A stretch of 64,000 nt of DNA from Armatimonas rosea (GTDB lineage Bacteria > Armatimonadota > Armatimonadia > Armatimonadales > Armatimonadaceae): the NCBI RefSeq assembly GCF_014202505.1, contig NZ_JACHGW010000004.1, positions 1 to 64,000 of the forward strand, read 5' to 3'. Position 1 is the first letter of the stretch. The number at the start of each line of letters is the position of its first letter. The translations under genes were made by a program, and so were the position numbers. Of this stretch, positions 10,295 to 43,371 are shown piece after piece. The notes beneath the pieces were generated by a model. It was not told where the DNA came from. It searched no databases and saw only the letters and a list, made by a program, of their open reading frames with translations.

Positions 10295-10322
10295 TTGAAA
10301 CATAATAAACATTATCATTTTC
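10295..10322 (-). other. dif-like site, left prophage boundary (attL)
   Basis: Read on the minus strand: XerC-type arm GAAAATGATAA, 6-bp spacer TGTTTA, XerD-type arm TTATGTTTCAA. The inner ATAA/TTATGTT positions match bacterial dif sites. The 18-bp core 10299-10316 is repeated exactly at 18160-18177. The XerD-type arm here belongs to the host side and the XerC-type arm to the phage side. Confidence 0.8.
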
Positions 10323-17827: not shown

Positions 17828-18166
17828 GTGGCTCTCGTCGATTATCCGTGTGTTTGCACTTGTGGCACAGAGGTTAAGTGTGGGCGTCCGTCTCGGCGTT
17901 TTCGGCCTGGTCTTGGGACTTGTTGTGTCCGGTGTTACAATGGTTCTTGCGTGGGTGGCCCCGGATCAGGGACGCCAAAGTCTGCGGAAGATCGCTTGTC
18001 GGTCGTTTTTGCCTGTCGGATTACGGAGTCCGAGGCTGAGGCGCTCCGTGCCCTTTGTCGTCCTAAAGAGACTCTTGCTCAATGTGTCCGCCGAATTTTA
18101 CGGGCGGGACTTGACAAGACCGCCGAAGGTGTGGAGAATGTAAACAATTCGGGTGATGGAACATAA
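17828..18166 (+). CDS. Cys-rich zinc-ribbon-like plus ribbon-helix-helix phage regulator, putative
   Basis: 112 residues from GTG 17828 (GAGG ribosome binding site at 17818-17821). Part one is Cys-rich (CVCTCGTEVKCGR...RFRPG...CCVRC), resembling small zinc ribbons of the form CxCxCGxxVxxG...FxPG. Part two, after a Gly-rich joint, looks like a ribbon-helix-helix: strand LSVVFACR, then TESEAEALRALC and ETLAQCVRRILRAGLDK. A repressor or copy-control role is likely. The stop codon TAA lies inside the attachment site. A shorter product from GTG 17951 would contain only the second part. Confidence 0.5.
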   Translation: MALVDYPCVCTCGTEVKCGRPSRRFRPGLGTCCVRCYNGSCVGGPGSGTPKSAEDRLSVVFACRITESEAEALRALCRPKETLAQCVRRILRAGLDKTAEGVENVNNSGDGT

Positions 18167-18183
18167 TAAACATTATCGGACGT
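18156..18183 (-). other. dif-like site, right prophage boundary (attR)
   Basis: Read on the minus strand: XerC-type arm ACGTCCGATAA, spacer TGTTTA, XerD-type arm TTATGTTCCAT. Core 18160-18177 is identical to attL. Here the XerC-type arm is host DNA and the XerD-type arm is phage DNA. Joining this XerC arm with the XerD arm of attL rebuilds the empty chromosomal dif. Confidence 0.8.
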
Positions 18184-18575: not shown

Positions 18576-19352
18576 CTAGATAAGGCCATGTGCCCGAACT
18601 TTTTCCGCAAAGAGCCGCAAACCAGCCTCTTCACGCTCCCCAAGGTCGTAGACAATGGCGTGGGAGAAGTAAGCAGACGCTCGCTCCAGGCTCTCGCCGT
18701 GCTCACTGGCGCGCCGGGCGGCCACGAGCTCCAGGTGCGAGACGCCCCATTCCTTGGCCTTAAGAAGCTGTGCGCACAGCTCGGGGGTCAGGAGATCCGG
18801 GCGGCCGATCCAGAGCGCGAAGACAAACGGTAGCTGGGTCCAGTCTTTCCAGATCTCACCAAGATCGAGAGCGACCAGACCGGGATCGTAGTCGCGGTAG
18901 CCCTTGTCGCCGATCAGGAGCGCGGCATCGTGGTCGGCGAGCATCGTAGCGAGCTCCGGGGCCATCGGGGTGTACTCCGGGGTCAGCCCAAAGCGCTCCT
19001 CCAGCAGGATCTTGGTCAGAGTCACGGAGGTCAGCGACGAGGTATCCAGCGCGACTCGCTTGATCTTCTCCACGGGCACTTGGGAAAAGACGCGCACCGA
19101 GCGCACGGGGCCATCGCAGGCCACGGAGACTCCTGGCGCGTAGGTCAGCTGGGGACGCCGCACCCACGCGACAGCGGAGACAAGGCCCGCGGCGAAGTCG
19201 CCGGGCTCAAGGCGCGGGGCCAAGAGCGACGGCAGGATAAACTCAACACTCGCCCCCAGCGCCCTGCCTTCGTCGGTCTCGCTAAACCAGTCCGTGAGCG
19301 GGCGCGCATTGAGGTACGGAACGGAGCCCAGCTTAAAATTGAACGTGTTCAT
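18576..19352 (-). CDS. mqnA: Chorismate dehydratase MqnA (futalosine menaquinone pathway)
   Basis: 258 residues from ATG 19352. It catalyses dehydration of chorismate to 3-enolpyruvoyl-benzoate, the first step of the futalosine route to menaquinone. The periplasmic-binding-protein-like fold is shown by LGSVPYLNARPL at the N-terminus, VALDTSSLTSVTLTKILL and ALLIGDKGYRD. Two extra N-terminal codons groups (start 19370) are possible, but the inner ATG sits 6 nt after TACAAT. No other mqn gene is in the window. A TGAAC-GTTCA palindrome covers its start codon. Confidence 0.9.
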   Translation of the reverse strand: MNTFNFKLGSVPYLNARPLTDWFSETDEGRALGASVEFILPSLLAPRLEPGDFAAGLVSAVAWVRRPQLTYAPGVSVACDGPVRSVRVFSQVPVEKIKRVALDTSSLTSVTLTKILLEERFGLTPEYTPMAPELATMLADHDAALLIGDKGYRDYDPGLVALDLGEIWKDWTQLPFVFALWIGRPDLLTPELCAQLLKAKEWGVSHLELVAARRASEHGESLERASAYFSHAIVYDLGEREEAGLRLFAEKVRAHGLI

Positions 19353-19364
19353 AAAATAATTGTA
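19333..19364 (-). promoter_or_regulatory. mqnA promoter and operator-like palindrome
   Basis: TACAAT (19359-19364, with an upstream TG as in extended -10 promoters) ends 6 nt before the mqnA ATG. The 19-mer at 19333-19351 overlaps the start codon, contains a TGAAC-GTTCA palindrome and recurs exactly at 42068-42086. Confidence 0.5.
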
Positions 19365-19377
19365 CCACAATTGCGTG

Positions 19378-19383
19378 TATAAT
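19378..19383 (+). promoter_or_regulatory. -10 element (TATAAT), leaderless
   Basis: Perfect TATAAT ending 8 nt before the ATG at 19392 of the HEAT-repeat gene; divergent from and close to the mqnA promoter. Confidence 0.55.
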
Positions 19384-19391
19384 CTGTTGCA

Positions 19392-21164
19392 ATGAGCATG
19401 GATGTTTCGCCGACAGGCACAAAGTTTACTCCGCGCAAGGTCCTGGGCGGAGCTCTGCTGGCGCTGATTGGGTTTGGGGTGATCAACTTCGGGATTCAGA
19501 CCTACTTCACCCGGAGCCAGCTAGGTCTCGTCGCCAGCAAGGATGCGTCGTCGCAGGAGCAAGGGGTTACCCAGCTAATGGGCCGCAAGGTCCTCTTCGA
19601 CGCCCTCCAGGGCGGCGCTCCCCCCGAGACCCGGCTCGCGGCCATTGTGACCCTGCAGAAGATGTCCGACGGCGGCAAGAACAAGGACGCCTTCGAGCAG
19701 CTCCTCCAGATGTGCAAAGACCCCGACACAGAGTCTGCGGAGAAGAAGACCCACCCCGTGCGCGATGCCGCGCGCGCCGCGGTCGCCGCCGTCGGTGCCA
19801 CCTACGCCGAGCGCCTGCTCGATGCCGCCAAGGACCCGGACAGCAACATCCGCGACGGTGCCCGCGATGCGCTAAAGAAGATCGGTGCGCCGTTAAAAGA
19901 GCAGATGGCAAAGCGGCTCTCGGATGGCGGCCTGCGTGGGCCCATCGGCGATATCCTCACCAGTATCGGCCCGGATACGATCCCGCTCATCGTCCCCTAC
20001 CTCACCGATGAGAAGATCAAAGACGATGCCGGGGCCAAGATCACGCTGATCGAGACGCTCGGCAAGTTCAAGGTGGCGGAGGCGGCCACTCCCCTGCTGC
20101 CCTTTATCGACGACAAAGACCCCAATGTGCGCCGTGCGGTGATCACAAGCCTCGCCAATATTGGGGACCCCGTGGGCGCTCCCGTGCTGATCCAGGCACT
20201 CTCGAGCCCAGACACCGACGCCTCCGCGCGTGCGGCTGCCGCAGGGGCGCTGGGAGGAATCGGGACGCCCGAGGCCAATGCGGCGATGCTCAAGGCCCTC
20301 AGCGACTACGACACGTTTGTGGGGGTCGCGGCGGCGGCGGGTCTGCGCCGTGCGGGTGGCTCAGCCACGACCCAGCTCGCCCAAGCCCTCACCGACCCCA
20401 GCCCTTGGGTACGGAGCCTCGCGGCAGAGGCGGCGGGTGGTCAGCGCACCGCGACCCTCGCCACCAAGGCCCTCACCGACAGCGATCCCGCCGTCCGTGC
20501 CAAGGCCGCGGCTGCCCTTGGGGATGTCCTGTTCCGCGCCGCCGGGATTCGTCAGGCACTCGCCGCCCTTGCAAGCGCTGCGGACGACAAGGCCCGGGAT
20601 GCCGCTGTGACCGACCTGATCCGCTTTGGCGCAGAGCAGGAAACCAACGCCGTGGGCGCACCACCTGCAGCAAAGACCAGCCTGATCGCCTACTACACCG
20701 CCAAGCGCGATGCCGAGAAAGACGACAAGAAAAAAGCCCCCTGGGACAAGAAGATCGCCGCTCTCTCGGCCCCGAGCCTCGCCCCCGCGCTCGCCCAGCC
20801 CACCGAGTTTCTGCCCCTGATCACCGCGCTGAGCGATAAAGAAGGTGCCTCCGAGGCCGCAGCAATCGCACTGGGCAGACTGGGAACTGTCGCGGTCGAG
20901 GCGCTCAAGGCAAAGTTAGGAAGCGGAGACGATACCCTGGCGTACTATGCGTCCAAGGCCCTCGCAACAGTCGGCCGGGATGCCGTCCCCGGTCTCCTGC
21001 CACTGGCAACCGAGGGAAACCCCGCCGCCCGCTGGGCCGCGATCACCCTCGGCGAGATCCGCGACCCGAAAGCCGCTTCTGCGCTTGAGGCGCTCACTAA
21101 GTCCGCCAGCGAGGACACGGCCTTTGTTGCCCAGGCCGCTCTGTCCAAAGTCAAGCCGGGATAA
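19392..21164 (+). CDS. Membrane-anchored HEAT-repeat protein
   Basis: 590 residues. One N-terminal membrane helix (residues ~17-38, LGGALLALIGFGVINFG) is followed by at least ten HEAT/PBS-lyase-type repeats of ~30 residues, seen as recurring VRRAVITSLANIGDP and ARAAAAGALGGIG patterns. A charged insertion (KRDAEKDDKKKAPWDKK) interrupts them near residue 440. Such repeats form a curved scaffold for protein-protein contacts. The bulk is probably extracytoplasmic. No catalytic motif is seen. Confidence 0.8.
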   Translation: MSMDVSPTGTKFTPRKVLGGALLALIGFGVINFGIQTYFTRSQLGLVASKDASSQEQGVTQLMGRKVLFDALQGGAPPETRLAAIVTLQKMSDGGKNKDAFEQLLQMCKDPDTESAEKKTHPVRDAARAAVAAVGATYAERLLDAAKDPDSNIRDGARDALKKIGAPLKEQMAKRLSDGGLRGPIGDILTSIGPDTIPLIVPYLTDEKIKDDAGAKITLIETLGKFKVAEAATPLLPFIDDKDPNVRRAVITSLANIGDPVGAPVLIQALSSPDTDASARAAAAGALGGIGTPEANAAMLKALSDYDTFVGVAAAAGLRRAGGSATTQLAQALTDPSPWVRSLAAEAAGGQRTATLATKALTDSDPAVRAKAAAALGDVLFRAAGIRQALAALASAADDKARDAAVTDLIRFGAEQETNAVGAPPAAKTSLIAYYTAKRDAEKDDKKKAPWDKKIAALSAPSLAPALAQPTEFLPLITALSDKEGASEAAAIALGRLGTVAVEALKAKLGSGDDTLAYYASKALATVGRDAVPGLLPLATEGNPAARWAAITLGEIRDPKAASALEALTKSASEDTAFVAQAALSKVKPG

Positions 21165-21173
21165 TCCTGAACC

Positions 21174-21237
21174 GGACAAAGCGTGAGCCCCTAGGCTGGA
21201 CAAAGCGTGAGCCCCTAGGCTGGCCTAAGGGCTCACG
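21174..21237. terminator. Hairpin with a duplicated 5' arm
   Basis: Two tandem 24-bp units (21174-21197, 21198-21221) each contain CGTGAGCCCCTAGGC; the complementary arm GCCTAAGGGCTCACG follows once (21223-21237). Either unit can pair with it (15 bp, one mismatch). It lies between convergent genes and probably ends transcription on both strands, although the T-tract is poor. Confidence 0.55.
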
Positions 21238-38320: not shown

Positions 38321-38440
38321 ACGGTAAACCTCGGGGCTATGGGGCGCTTCGCGCCGCCTCCTCGTCCCTCGTCGGTAAAATTCCGAGCGGAGCGAGGCGG
38401 CGCGAAGCGCCCTATAGCCGGACGATCTCCGTCCTGGCTT
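38321..38440. repeat. Intergenic palindromic element, copy 2
   Basis: A 24-bp stem, one mismatch, joins 38335-38358 and 38396-38419. The block GGCTATGGGGC...CGCCTCCTCGT...CCTCGTCGGTAAA is shared with the element at 5754-5867, and ACGGAGATCG occurs in the flank of both (inverted here). It fills the gap before rlmN. Confidence 0.65.
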
Positions 38441-39583: not shown

Positions 39584-41238
39584 CCGCCGATGAGTGGCGT
39601 GAGAAGCTCGCCACTCTCCCTACCAAAGAGATAAATCGCCTGCTCAAGTCCGAGCCAGGCCTGACCGCGCAGATCAGCACGGGCTTCCGGCCTGGCCCGG
39701 AGACCCTCAAGAACCCGGTCGTCCTGCGCCGGCTCGCCGAGGCGCTTCCCAAGAACCCCAAGCTCGCCGAGGCACTCCAGAGCCAGGAGGCACCAGAGCC
39801 GGTCGAAGCCAAGCCGAAACCCCTGCCGCCACCGACGCAAGCCAAGGCCGAGCCGAGCGTGGAGCCGTCGGAGAAGCTGCAGACGAAGCTAAAAGAGCAG
39901 CGTGCTGCGCTCAAGGCCAAGGAAGCGCTCCTTGCCGAGCAGGCGCTTCGACTCGCGCAACTGGAGAAAGAGCGCGATGCCGCCCTCACGGAGCGTGACA
40001 GCGAGCGTAGGGCACGGGAGGCTGTCGAGGTGCGCTTGGAGCGGGAACTGCGGCGCAAGGCCCCCGAGCCGGTCGCTGCCGTGGTTGTCGCGCCACCCAC
40101 ACCACCCACACCACCACCAATCGTCCCACCGGACGACAAGGCTGAGTGGATGCCTGATGCCCTCAACCGCCTGCTGCTGCGCGGCCACGATGCGAGCGTC
40201 TTGGGGCTCTGCCGGGAGCTTCTCTCGGATAAGGACCTCCCGGTTGCGGCGCGTGCCGGTGTGCAGGGAGTCTATGCCATGGCGCTGGGGAGTTTAGGGG
40301 CTACCGATGCACCGGAGCAGTTTCGGGTCGCCACGGAGGCGTATCTGAGTGCCGGGCGTGTGCTCGATGCCGCCGAGACCCTGCTCCGCGCCTTTCCTCG
40401 CCCCAAGCCAAGCACTGCGGAGCGCGCCCTGCTCCAGCGGCTCCTCGCCCTAGCAGAGCGGCGCGGCGAGCTGGAGGCACTGGGCCGGAGCCTGGCTCGC
40501 CAGCGCCTCACCGAGCCGACGGGCTACCGGTGCCTGCTTACCGCGCTGGAGACAGTCGGGGGGCGCTACCCGAACCTCTTGCCCAGCCCGAGTGTCACCA
40601 AGCTCTCCCCCGATGAGCCGGTCGCGCTCCCCACGGCGTCGAAGCGCGCGGCCAGTGTGACGGCGCGTCAGTTGGTCAAGGCAATCGACGAAGGCGAGGT
40701 GGTGCTGATTACGCGGGTCCGCGCCGGGCTTCAGGAGCTCCGCGGCACCAACCCGCCCCTTGCCGACGCGCTCCACAACGCAGTTGGTGCCCTCTCCGAG
40801 CCCGCCCTCACGGTCTTGACCGCCAAGCGGATTCGTCCCATTGTCGTGGACGCGTCGAATGTTGCACGCCATGTCGCCGATCCCATGGCGGCGTTTATGA
40901 ACGCCAAGAAAAAACCGACCGGCTCCGCGGCACAGCTGCTCCAGGTCCGGGATTTTCTGCTACGGCATGGCTTCTTTCCGGTCTTGCTGATCGCCGATGC
41001 CAACCTGCGGCACATTGTCACCGAGAAGGCCCGCTACGACTCCCTTGTCGAGCGGCACATTGTCCGTGAGACCCTCTCCGGAACCAGCGCCGATGAGCTT
41101 CTCCTCACCGAGGCCCACGCGCACCAAGCGCCCCTGCTCACCAACGACCGCCTCGCCGACTGGGGCAAGCAAGCGGAGGGAGTCGAGCGGCTCGGGTTTA
41201 CGCTTCACTCGGGCGGGGTCGTGCTGCTTCCCTCTTGA
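39580..41238 (+). CDS. Coiled-coil protein with C-terminal PIN/NYN-type (Zc3h12a-like) RNase domain
   Basis: 552 residues from ATG 39580. Residues ~90-190 are a charged coiled coil (EKLQTKLKEQRAALKAKEALL) followed by a Pro-rich joint. A helical middle part follows. The last ~145 residues begin RPIVVDASNVARH and continue with LLIADANLRH, SADELLLTEA and LTNDRLADWG, the four acidic positions of Zc3h12a-type RNases. An RNA-cleaving role is likely. It is translationally coupled to rlmN. The 3' end overlaps the convergent TetR gene by 34 nt. Confidence 0.72.
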   Translation: MTADEWREKLATLPTKEINRLLKSEPGLTAQISTGFRPGPETLKNPVVLRRLAEALPKNPKLAEALQSQEAPEPVEAKPKPLPPPTQAKAEPSVEPSEKLQTKLKEQRAALKAKEALLAEQALRLAQLEKERDAALTERDSERRAREAVEVRLERELRRKAPEPVAAVVVAPPTPPTPPPIVPPDDKAEWMPDALNRLLLRGHDASVLGLCRELLSDKDLPVAARAGVQGVYAMALGSLGATDAPEQFRVATEAYLSAGRVLDAAETLLRAFPRPKPSTAERALLQRLLALAERRGELEALGRSLARQRLTEPTGYRCLLTALETVGGRYPNLLPSPSVTKLSPDEPVALPTASKRAASVTARQLVKAIDEGEVVLITRVRAGLQELRGTNPPLADALHNAVGALSEPALTVLTAKRIRPIVVDASNVARHVADPMAAFMNAKKKPTGSAAQLLQVRDFLLRHGFFPVLLIADANLRHIVTEKARYDSLVERHIVRETLSGTSADELLLTEAHAHQAPLLTNDRLADWGKQAEGVERLGFTLHSGGVVLLPS

Positions 41239-41933
41239 GGCGGCAGGGCGGGGTTGCCAAAGAGCGGCTCTAAAATCGCCCCGAGGCGCGCCGCCGACTG
41301 CGCCGCCCACGGGAGCCGCAGCGCAAGCCACATTCGCCCGAGCATCTCCTCGCCAAAGGCAAGTAAGTCCGCGGTCGCTTTCTGGTTGGGGGTTGGGTCC
41401 TGTGCCCAAAAAAGAACCAACAGGAGATGCCCCGTGTAGAGCAGGGTCGGGAGCTGCTGACGGATCGGGCCCTTGGGGACATCGTTTGCCCCCGCCACCA
41501 CCTCCTGAAAGACCCCATGGATCCGCCGTCGCCAGTGCGCCGCCCCCTCCCCGAGCACTTGGGTCGGGCTACCGGGAGTGAGCCCGGCCCCAAAGAGCGC
41601 GGTGAGAGTGGCACGGTGCGGCAGGAGCAGCGCGATATCCGCCCGCTCGATCGCCGCCCAGCGGCTCGCCAGCGAGCCGGGCGGCAACCGCTTCGCCTCG
41701 GTCGCCAGCTCCTCCACCAGCCGCTCGTAGAGGGCGAGGACCATCTCCTCTTTCGTGCGGAAGTAGCGGTACGCAAGCCCCAGCGAGCACTCGGCGCGCT
41801 CGGCGATCCCGCGCATGGTCGCGCCCTCGAATCCCTGCTCGGCAAAGAGCTCCAGCGCCGCGGCTAAGATCCGCTCGCGGGTGCGCTCCCCTTTGGAAAC
41901 CTTCTCGTTAACTGTGGTGGCTATCTCACTCAT
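41205..41933 (-). CDS. TetR-family transcriptional regulator
   Basis: 242 residues from ATG 41933 (an upstream start adds 18 residues). The N-terminal helix-turn-helix is RERILAAALELFAEQGFEGATMRGIAERA with recognition region CSLGLAYRYFRTKEEM, given as landmarks in two parts. The ligand domain resembles no specific subfamily. It is divergent from a membrane-protein gene; palindromes of TGAAC-GTTCA type lie right after the -10 of both, so it probably represses both. It may also control mqnA. Confidence 0.85.
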   Translation of the reverse strand: MSEIATTVNEKVSKGERTRERILAAALELFAEQGFEGATMRGIAERAECSLGLAYRYFRTKEEMVLALYERLVEELATEAKRLPPGSLASRWAAIERADIALLLPHRATLTALFGAGLTPGSPTQVLGEGAAHWRRRIHGVFQEVVAGANDVPKGPIRQQLPTLLYTGHLLLVLFWAQDPTPNQKATADLLAFGEEMLGRMWLALRLPWAAQSAARLGAILEPLFGNPALPPQEGSSTTPPE

Positions 41934-42018: not shown

Positions 42019-42036
42019 TGAACTTTGTTCATTTTA
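42019..42036 (-). promoter_or_regulatory. tetR promoter -10 and operator-like palindrome
   Basis: On the minus strand TAAAAT (42031-42036) runs directly into TGAACAAAGTTCA (42019-42031), arms TGAAC/GTTCA with a 3-nt centre. Position suits autoregulation. Confidence 0.5.
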
Positions 42037-42040
42037 CCTC

Positions 42041-42087
42041 TTGACAGAGTTGATTGCCACGGATATATTAAAATTGAACGTGTTCAA
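42041..42087 (+). promoter_or_regulatory. Promoter and operator of the divergent membrane-protein gene
   Basis: TTGACA (42041-42046), 17-bp spacer, TATATT (42064-42069). The palindrome TTGAACGTGTTCAA (42074-42087) covers the expected start of transcription. 42068-42086 is identical to the sequence at the mqnA start. Confidence 0.7.
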
Positions 42088-42100
42088 AAATGTTTCGAGG

Positions 42101-42478
42101 ATGAATTTGAGGCCAATGCTACGCGCTGTAGGAGGAAGTTTTCTGGCAACCCTGATCGGCTGGAGTGTCGGCGCGGCTTGTTGGCTGGTGTGGGCACCCA
42201 TTGCCTTCTTCTACATGGGCTTTGTGATCCTTCCCCTCTGGCTCCTTGTGCTCCTGCCACTCTATCTCTTTCTGCCTCGAGAAAGTTTCCTCTGGCAGGC
42301 ACGCTTTGCCCTCCCCTTGGGAGCAGCGGCGGGTGGCTTGTTGGTAGCAGCCCTCCTTGCAGTTACTGGTGCGTGGAAGGAAGTTAATCTGTTCTTCCTG
42401 CTCGATGCTCTTACGGGCGCGATCACGGGGGGGACTGCCTGCTACGCTGCCACAAAAAACGTCAGCCGCTACCGGTAA
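42101..42478 (+). CDS. Small integral membrane protein controlled by TetR
   Basis: 125 residues from ATG 42101 (ATG 42116 is an alternative). About four hydrophobic helices: GSFLATLIGWSVGAACWLVW, FFYMGFVILPLWLLVLLPLY, LPLGAAAGGLLVAALLAV and LDALTGAITGGTACY. No family is recognised. The divergent TetR gene and shared operators suggest an inducible membrane function such as efflux or stress response. Confidence 0.6.
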   Translation: MNLRPMLRAVGGSFLATLIGWSVGAACWLVWAPIAFFYMGFVILPLWLLVLLPLYLFLPRESFLWQARFALPLGAAAGGLLVAALLAVTGAWKEVNLFFLLDALTGAITGGTACYAATKNVSRYR

Positions 42479-42483
42479 CGACT

Positions 42484-43371
42484 ATGAAACTCATCATCAC
42501 GGGCGGCTCGGGGTACTGCGGCAAACTTCTGACGGCGTTCTTTACGGAGCGTGGCGACCAGGTCGTGGTGGTCTCGCGGCAAAACGGGGGCTGGGCGCGG
42601 CTCGCGGAGCTCTTTAACGGGGCCGATGTGGTGATCAATCTGGCGGGGCGCTCGGTGAACTGCCGCTACACGGCGGACAACTGCGCGGCGATCTATGCCT
42701 CGCGCTTGGACACGACGCGGGCGGTGGGCGAGGCGATTGCGGCGTGCCCGAATCCGCCACGGGTCTGGCTCAACGCGTCCACGGCGACCATCTACCGCGA
42801 TGCACAGGACAGAGAGATGGACGAGGCAACGGGCGAGGTGGGAAAAGGCTTCTCCGTCGATGTGGCTACCCGCTGGGAGCAAGCGCTCGCGGATGCGCCA
42901 ATACCGCATACCCGGAAAGTGGCGCTGCGTGCGGCGATGGTGATGGGGCCAGGGAGCGACGGTGTCTTCGGCGCGTTTCTGGGGCTGACCAAGCTTGGGT
43001 TGGGTGGGCCGATGGCAGGCGGTGGACAGTTTGTGAGCTGGATTCATGCTACAGATTTTTGCCGCGCAATCGCCTTCCTGATCGAGCACGAGGAGCTCTC
43101 TGGTGCCGTCAACCTCGCCGCTCCCGAGCCGGTGACCAACCGCGTGTTCCTCACTGAGCTGCGCCGTGCCCTCAAGATGCCTATCGGGCTACCGTCGGCG
43201 CGCTGGATGCTGGAGCTCGGTGCCTACCTCCGCCAGACCGAGACCGAGCTTCTTCTCAAGAGCCGCCGTGTGGTTCCGGGCAGGCTCACCAAGGCGGGCT
43301 TTACCTTCACCTTCCCGACGTGGCGCGCCGCGGCACACGCGCTTGTCGGCGACAAGGTGGACGGAAATTAA
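42484..43371 (+). CDS. NAD-dependent epimerase/dehydratase-like protein (TIGR01777/SDR39U1 type)
   Basis: 295 residues. Rossmann start MKLIITGGSGYCGKLL, then NLAGRSVNCRYT and SRLDTTRAVGEAI, characteristic of the TIGR01777 (YfcH/SDR39U1) group, and FVSWIHATDFCRAI before the C-terminal domain. The catalytic Tyr typical of active SDRs (YxxxK) is not evident, as usual in this group. It could bind NADP in cell-division or envelope contexts; the function is unknown. Confidence 0.78.
   Translation: MKLIITGGSGYCGKLLTAFFTERGDQVVVVSRQNGGWARLAELFNGADVVINLAGRSVNCRYTADNCAAIYASRLDTTRAVGEAIAACPNPPRVWLNASTATIYRDAQDREMDEATGEVGKGFSVDVATRWEQALADAPIPHTRKVALRAAMVMGPGSDGVFGAFLGLTKLGLGGPMAGGGQFVSWIHATDFCRAIAFLIEHEELSGAVNLAAPEPVTNRVFLTELRRALKMPIGLPSARWMLELGAYLRQTETELLLKSRRVVPGRLTKAGFTFTFPTWRAAAHALVGDKVDGN

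Follow-up and report, generated by a model that had tools for sequence, protein, structure and literature searches.

Does a single regulator link a small membrane protein with menaquinone synthesis? The question is raised by an exact 19-mer, TTAAAATTGAACGTGTTCA, found twice in the window (the whole stretch of 64,000 nucleotides analysed here), at 42068-42086 between a tetR gene and its divergent neighbour, and at 19333-19351 over the start of mqnA. The first-pass annotation had reported both copies and considered such a match improbable by chance. Both are present, no further copy occurs in the window at up to three mismatches, and none was found in 100 shuffles, so the 19-mer is not expected by chance. 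All other exact 19-mer repeats of the window are tandem, hairpin or low-complexity sequence, or coding sequence shared by paralogues. The palindromic pattern TGAAC-N2/3-GTTCA has three occurrences in the window, where 0.07 would be expected.

The window contains other repeats as well. TGRAACATAATAAACATTATC is found at 10296-10316 and 18157-18177, two AT-rich stretches separated by 7.9 kb, each at the end of a gene or close to it; a 24-bp unit is exactly duplicated in tandem at 21174-21221, just downstream of a HEAT-repeat gene; and an inverted repeat with arms of 26 nt, 96% complementary and spaced by 33 nt, spans 38335-38419.

Architecture of the tetR and mqnA loci

The tetR gene (41205..41933, reverse strand) encodes a protein of 242 amino acids that scores over the cut-off for PF00440 (E 3e-16), and its predicted structure (pLDDT 90) is all-helical and matches TetR proteins. 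Divergent from it are a small membrane protein of 125 amino acids and no known family (42101..42478, forward strand), and an NAD-dependent epimerase with a DUF1731 domain (42484..43371, forward strand; PF01370 and PF08338). The best start of the former is the ATG at 42101, with in-frame GTG (42080) and TTG (42074) as alternatives. A promoter scan identified a strong promoter for the divergent gene (TTGACA-17-TATATT, 42041..42069, forward strand), and a weak one for tetR (GTGGCA-18-TAAAAT, 42031..42060, reverse strand).

A predicted operator with the N3 spacing, TGAACTTTGTTCA (42019..42031), abuts the TAAAAT of the tetR promoter (42036-42031), just as the annotation had it. The predicted N2 operator, TTGAACGTGTTCAA (42074..42087), overlaps the shared 19-mer; the TATATT of the divergent promoter ends 5 nt before its TGAAC, and it spans the expected transcription start of that gene. 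It had been placed over the start of the divergent gene, which holds for the expected transcription start but not clearly for the start codon. Genome G001 conserves the N3 site; its divergent promoter is near-identical over the stretch bounded by the N3 and N2 sites, with differing DNA on either side.

The mqnA gene (18576..19352, reverse strand; PF02621, E 9e-50) belongs to the futalosine pathway of menaquinone synthesis. Its predicted operator, TGAACGTGTTCA, lies over the gene start at 19340-19351, within the second copy of the 19-mer; it begins in the ATG codon (ATG AAC ACG TTC A..) and is partly coding. The annotation had set it over the mqnA start and shortly after a -10 element. It does stand 7 nt after a -10-like TACAAT (19359..19364, reverse strand), which was read from the sequence, but the promoter scan gave no full sigma-70-like promoter on the mqnA strand. 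In G001 the arms of the palindrome are kept, although the codon between them specifies Ala there instead of Thr, and the N-terminal residues encoded at the palindrome are missing from other family members. Only 39 bp (19353-19391) separate mqnA from the divergent HEAT-repeat gene (19392-21164), and the predicted operator could act on that gene as well.

Conservation of the motif at tetR orthologues

Armatimonadota, Chloroflexi (both Anaerolineae-type and Ktedonobacteria), Rubrobacter and others harbour orthologues of this TetR, which share 34-92% identity with it. The motif noted by the annotation, with either spacer, recurs at them across phyla: an exact TGAAC-N2-GTTCA or TGAAC-N3-GTTCA is found upstream of tetR in 29 of the 34 orthologous loci, where I estimate the chance of a single 10-base match of this kind in a region of this length at below 0.1%. 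By sequence, these loci therefore carry a palindromic site in the regulator's own promoter, as befits the TetR family. The exact N2 form, TGAACNNGTTCA, is present in 21 of the 34, and eight Ktedonobacteria-type loci possess the exact N3 form, TGAACNNNGTTCA, alone, while the genus of the window has one site of either form. Spacers of 0, 1, 4, 5 and 6 bases were also tried at the 34 loci, and none is present. The LexA box of Gram-positive bacteria is GAAC-N4-GTTC, and a LexA reading was rejected on this spacing.

A TetR matrix was built from 26 tetR-promoter sites, taken from other genomes only. Applied to the window, it ranks the mqnA site first (25.1 bits) and the tetR N2 site second (24.7 bits), with the next match at 7.8 bits. 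The tetR N3 site scores -4.6 bits with this N2-type matrix and seemed inconsistent with the N2 consensus, but this doubt is removed by the Ktedonobacteria loci, which carry N3.

The partner adjacent to tetR varies by lineage, and is often a membrane protein. In Ktedonobacteria the neighbours are a YndJ protein and a DUF1731-type epimerase related to that of the window, and in Anaerolineae-type loci they are small tandem membrane proteins. The same operator at the Chloroflexi and Rubrobacter orthologues suggests an old regulator.

Comparison with known TetR-family regulators

The best match of the tetR product among solved structures is SCO4850 of Streptomyces coelicolor (PDB 3c07), both by sequence (E 9e-36) and by predicted fold (TM 0.80 by query length); in the papers searched, SCO4850 appears in expression studies only. 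Because the lipid-binding proteins KstR and FadR are only more distant fold matches, a hydrophobic ligand for TetR is a guess.

KstR of mycobacteria is a TetR-family repressor of lipid and cholesterol genes, with the motif TnnAACnnGTTnnA and sites such as GGAACGTGTTCT (PMC1995591). The resemblance includes the operator core AACNNGTT with N2 spacing, some KstR sites being nearly identical to those described here, the predicted autoregulation from a divergent promoter, and the fold family. In contrast, the targets here are quinone and membrane genes, and N3 sites occur too. With the KstR model NF033703 of NCBIfam, the tetR product scores 39.4 bits against a cut-off of 280. By its predicted operators it would thus work like KstR, but it is not KstR.

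Copies of the motif across the genome

The 6.33-Mb genome was scanned with sequence patterns rather than the matrix. TGAAC-N2/3-GTTCA is found in eight places, versus five for a reversed control pattern: at mqnA, twice at tetR, at an mqnE-like gene, at menG/ubiE (followed by a polyprenyl synthase gene), at sdhC, at a DCC1-like gene, and inside a phosphoglycerate-mutase-like gene. The last of these (L010) was set aside as an operator, since it lies within coding sequence. The mqnE-like gene encodes a radical SAM protein whose closest model is aminofutalosine synthase MqnE, as judged from a fragment, and the match of the DCC1-like gene falls below the Pfam cut-off. With one flanking base per side (KTGAACNNGTTCAM), exact matches are confined to mqnE, the DCC gene, sdhC, tetR and menG. 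One mismatch raises the count to 36, versus 31 for the control. The one-mismatch sites number 31, of which that of mqnA lies at a promoter and the remaining 30 are in open frames, mostly far from the start.

At mqnE, the DCC gene and tetR the site begins 3-5 nt past the -10, and at menG 17 nt past it. The weakest case is sdhC, whose site is well upstream of its promoter. The motif is thus rare, with its strong copies at promoters and additional copies on menaquinone genes, and the scattering unrelated to promoters that would have spoken against the annotation's proposal did not occur. The annotation had missed this wider set, which comprises mqnE, menG, the DCC-family gene and probably sdhC, as well as mqnC and ubiA in relatives.

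Overlap with Rex

Rex is a repressor that senses NADH/NAD+, with the operator consensus TTGTGAAN4TTCACAA (PMC8376106). Both TTGTGAACATGTTCACAA (menG) and TTGTGAACAAGTTCACAA (mqnE) match this consensus perfectly, and Rex was for this reason tested as a rival. A rex gene is present in 28 of the 31 genomes, including that of the window. With a Rex matrix, mqnC (20.7), mqnE (23.9) and menG (23.2) score as Rex sites, while mqnA and the tetR N2 site (both -1.7) do not. In the genome of the window, mqnC is consequently Rex-only, mqnE and menG can be read by both proteins, and mqnA, tetR, sdhC and the DCC gene are TetR-only (Rex scores below 0); ubiA possesses neither type of site.

Most genomes of the family carry Rex-type sites at mqnE, menG and mqnC, with TetR present or absent, and these genes are thus probably a Rex regulon predating the TetR sites; in a sister family, Rex-type sites are found at menG and rex. 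Like the TetR proposed here, Rex controls respiratory genes from positions after the -10, and two sites here fit both motifs; the Rex protein, however, is unrelated to TetR, and its motif is not matched at mqnA or tetR. The papers searched, among which the main comparative-genomics work on Rex was not covered, describe no case of Rex acting on menaquinone genes.

The conservation of Rex-type operators at futalosine-pathway menaquinone genes across an Armatimonadota order (including L214; G000, C6:13392), independent of TetR, is an observation in its own right, and one that the annotation had missed.

Association with the presence of TetR

The promoters of mqnA, mqnC, mqnE, menG and ubiA were compared across the family, using a TetR matrix built without the test genomes, and counting as a site any score of 10 bits or more (in shuffled 280-bp pieces the 99th percentile is 1.3 bits and the maximum 10.1). 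Sites are present at 12 of 20 promoters in genomes with TetR, and at 0 of 26 in genomes without it (Fisher 3e-6), although the species are not independent, since the positives are two genera grouping together with low tree support, and some of the genomes lacking TetR are incomplete assemblies.

The targets differ between genomes. The TetR-only site at mqnA is found in G000 and G001, and a dual site at mqnC in G002 and G008. These two also have a TetR-type site at mqnE, with a separate, adjoining Rex site in G008, and in G002 the motif is found upstream of menG and ubiA too, the latter a TetR-type site. In the sister family, TetR-containing genomes carry the motif at tetR only, and at none of the tested quinone genes; the menaquinone link is therefore not general to this TetR, and could have been added later, within one Armatimonadota family. 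As the positive genera group together, the link has perhaps a single origin. The difference in target genes between them suggests several gains of sites, and a turnover in which binding to the pathway would be maintained while individual sites move.

Proposed regulation and alternatives

I consider it probable, from these comparisons, that the tetR product is an autoregulated repressor that overlaps a Rex-controlled menaquinone regulon, and whose targets include the divergent gene, mqnA, mqnE, menG, the DCC gene and probably sdhC. The annotation's proposal of one regulator for the membrane protein and menaquinone synthesis is thus supported, and it would be extended by the further quinone-gene sites and by Rex as a second layer. 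A TetR dimer would bind TGAAC-N2/3-GTTCA, and the two sites at the tetR locus would block both the tetR promoter and that of the membrane protein and epimerase, by steric repression at the transcription start. In the genus of the window, TetR would also bind the mqnA start and the promoters of mqnE, menG, the DCC-family gene and probably sdhC, such that part of menaquinone synthesis would be repressed until a ligand, probably hydrophobic, releases the protein. This TetR layer would overlap the older control by Rex, leaving mqnC to Rex, mqnE and menG to both, and mqnA to TetR. What the computations show is the sites themselves, their conservation at tetR across phyla, their location in promoters, and that they depend on tetR being present; binding by TetR, repression rather than activation, the class of the ligand, and competition with Rex are what I infer.

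It is unlikely, in my view, that control by TetR extends no further than its own gene and the neighbour, with the menaquinone-gene sites belonging to Rex (repressing at low NADH/NAD+) and resembling the TetR motif by coincidence of overlapping consensus. Such a reading would account for the wide occurrence of rex, for Rex-type sites after the -10 of mqnE, menG and mqnC irrespective of TetR, and for the perfect Rex sites at mqnE and menG. It does not account for mqnA and the tetR N2 site, at about 25 bits with the TetR matrix, nor for the lack of GAACNNGTTC cores at all 26 quinone-gene promoters tested in genomes of the family without TetR. Furthermore, the mqnC Rex sites of the genus keep the normal consensus, and Rex specificity has thus not shifted there. 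Rex as sole owner of the sites was therefore rejected for mqnA and tetR, and kept for mqnC.

That the mqnA match is a coding coincidence of the codons AAC ACG TTC, rather than an operator, is very improbable: the site does sit at the start of the frame, where a full promoter was not found on the strand, but the exact 19-bp match includes the AT flanks, the arms survive the Thr to Ala change in G001, other family members do without those N-terminal residues, and similar sites recur at mqnE and menG. Just as little weight is given to activation of the quinone genes by TetR, or to another regulator of the same specificity. Function is deduced here from sequence, the genome encodes other TetR proteins, and the sdhC site, upstream of its promoter, is compatible with activation; against this, the tetR, mqnE and DCC sites occupy a repressor position, and the sites follow the presence of this TetR across genomes.

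Returning to the autoregulated TetR repressor, its regulon would be new and the regulator itself of a known kind; what is unusual is the dual-readable operators. The papers searched describe no regulator, of the TetR family or otherwise, that acts on transcription of the futalosine pathway to menaquinone, and nothing was found on TetR operators in Armatimonadota. If true, the proposal would name a regulator for this pathway, with its DNA code and targets, and would illustrate clearly how two unrelated repressors can have operators in common within one pathway. More tentatively, and at close to even odds, TetR may have been taking over, gene by gene, a menaquinone regulon that belongs to Rex in related genera, by way of operators that at first read both ways (TTGTGAACNNGTTCACAA) and then become TetR-only. 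One pathway would then answer two signals, NADH/NAD+ and a membrane- or quinone-linked ligand.

Additional sites in relatives

A second palindrome, CATAACNGTTATCG, is located near the TetR site at sdhC (G000, L011:1530-1543) and at ubiA (G002, L221:973-986); all other genes of the 357 loci lack it. In G002, which possesses TetR, a pair of TetR-type sites separated by about 45 bp lies close to a gene with sequence resemblance to RNase Z (L122, C641). Lastly, GTGAACGTGTTCAC is present at L237 (G018, C584:2112), where it lies upstream of small membrane proteins, rich in glycine and arranged in tandem. The G018 genome is 69% complete and has no close orthologue of TetR; tandem proteins of a similar kind adjoin tetR in the Anaerolineae-type loci.
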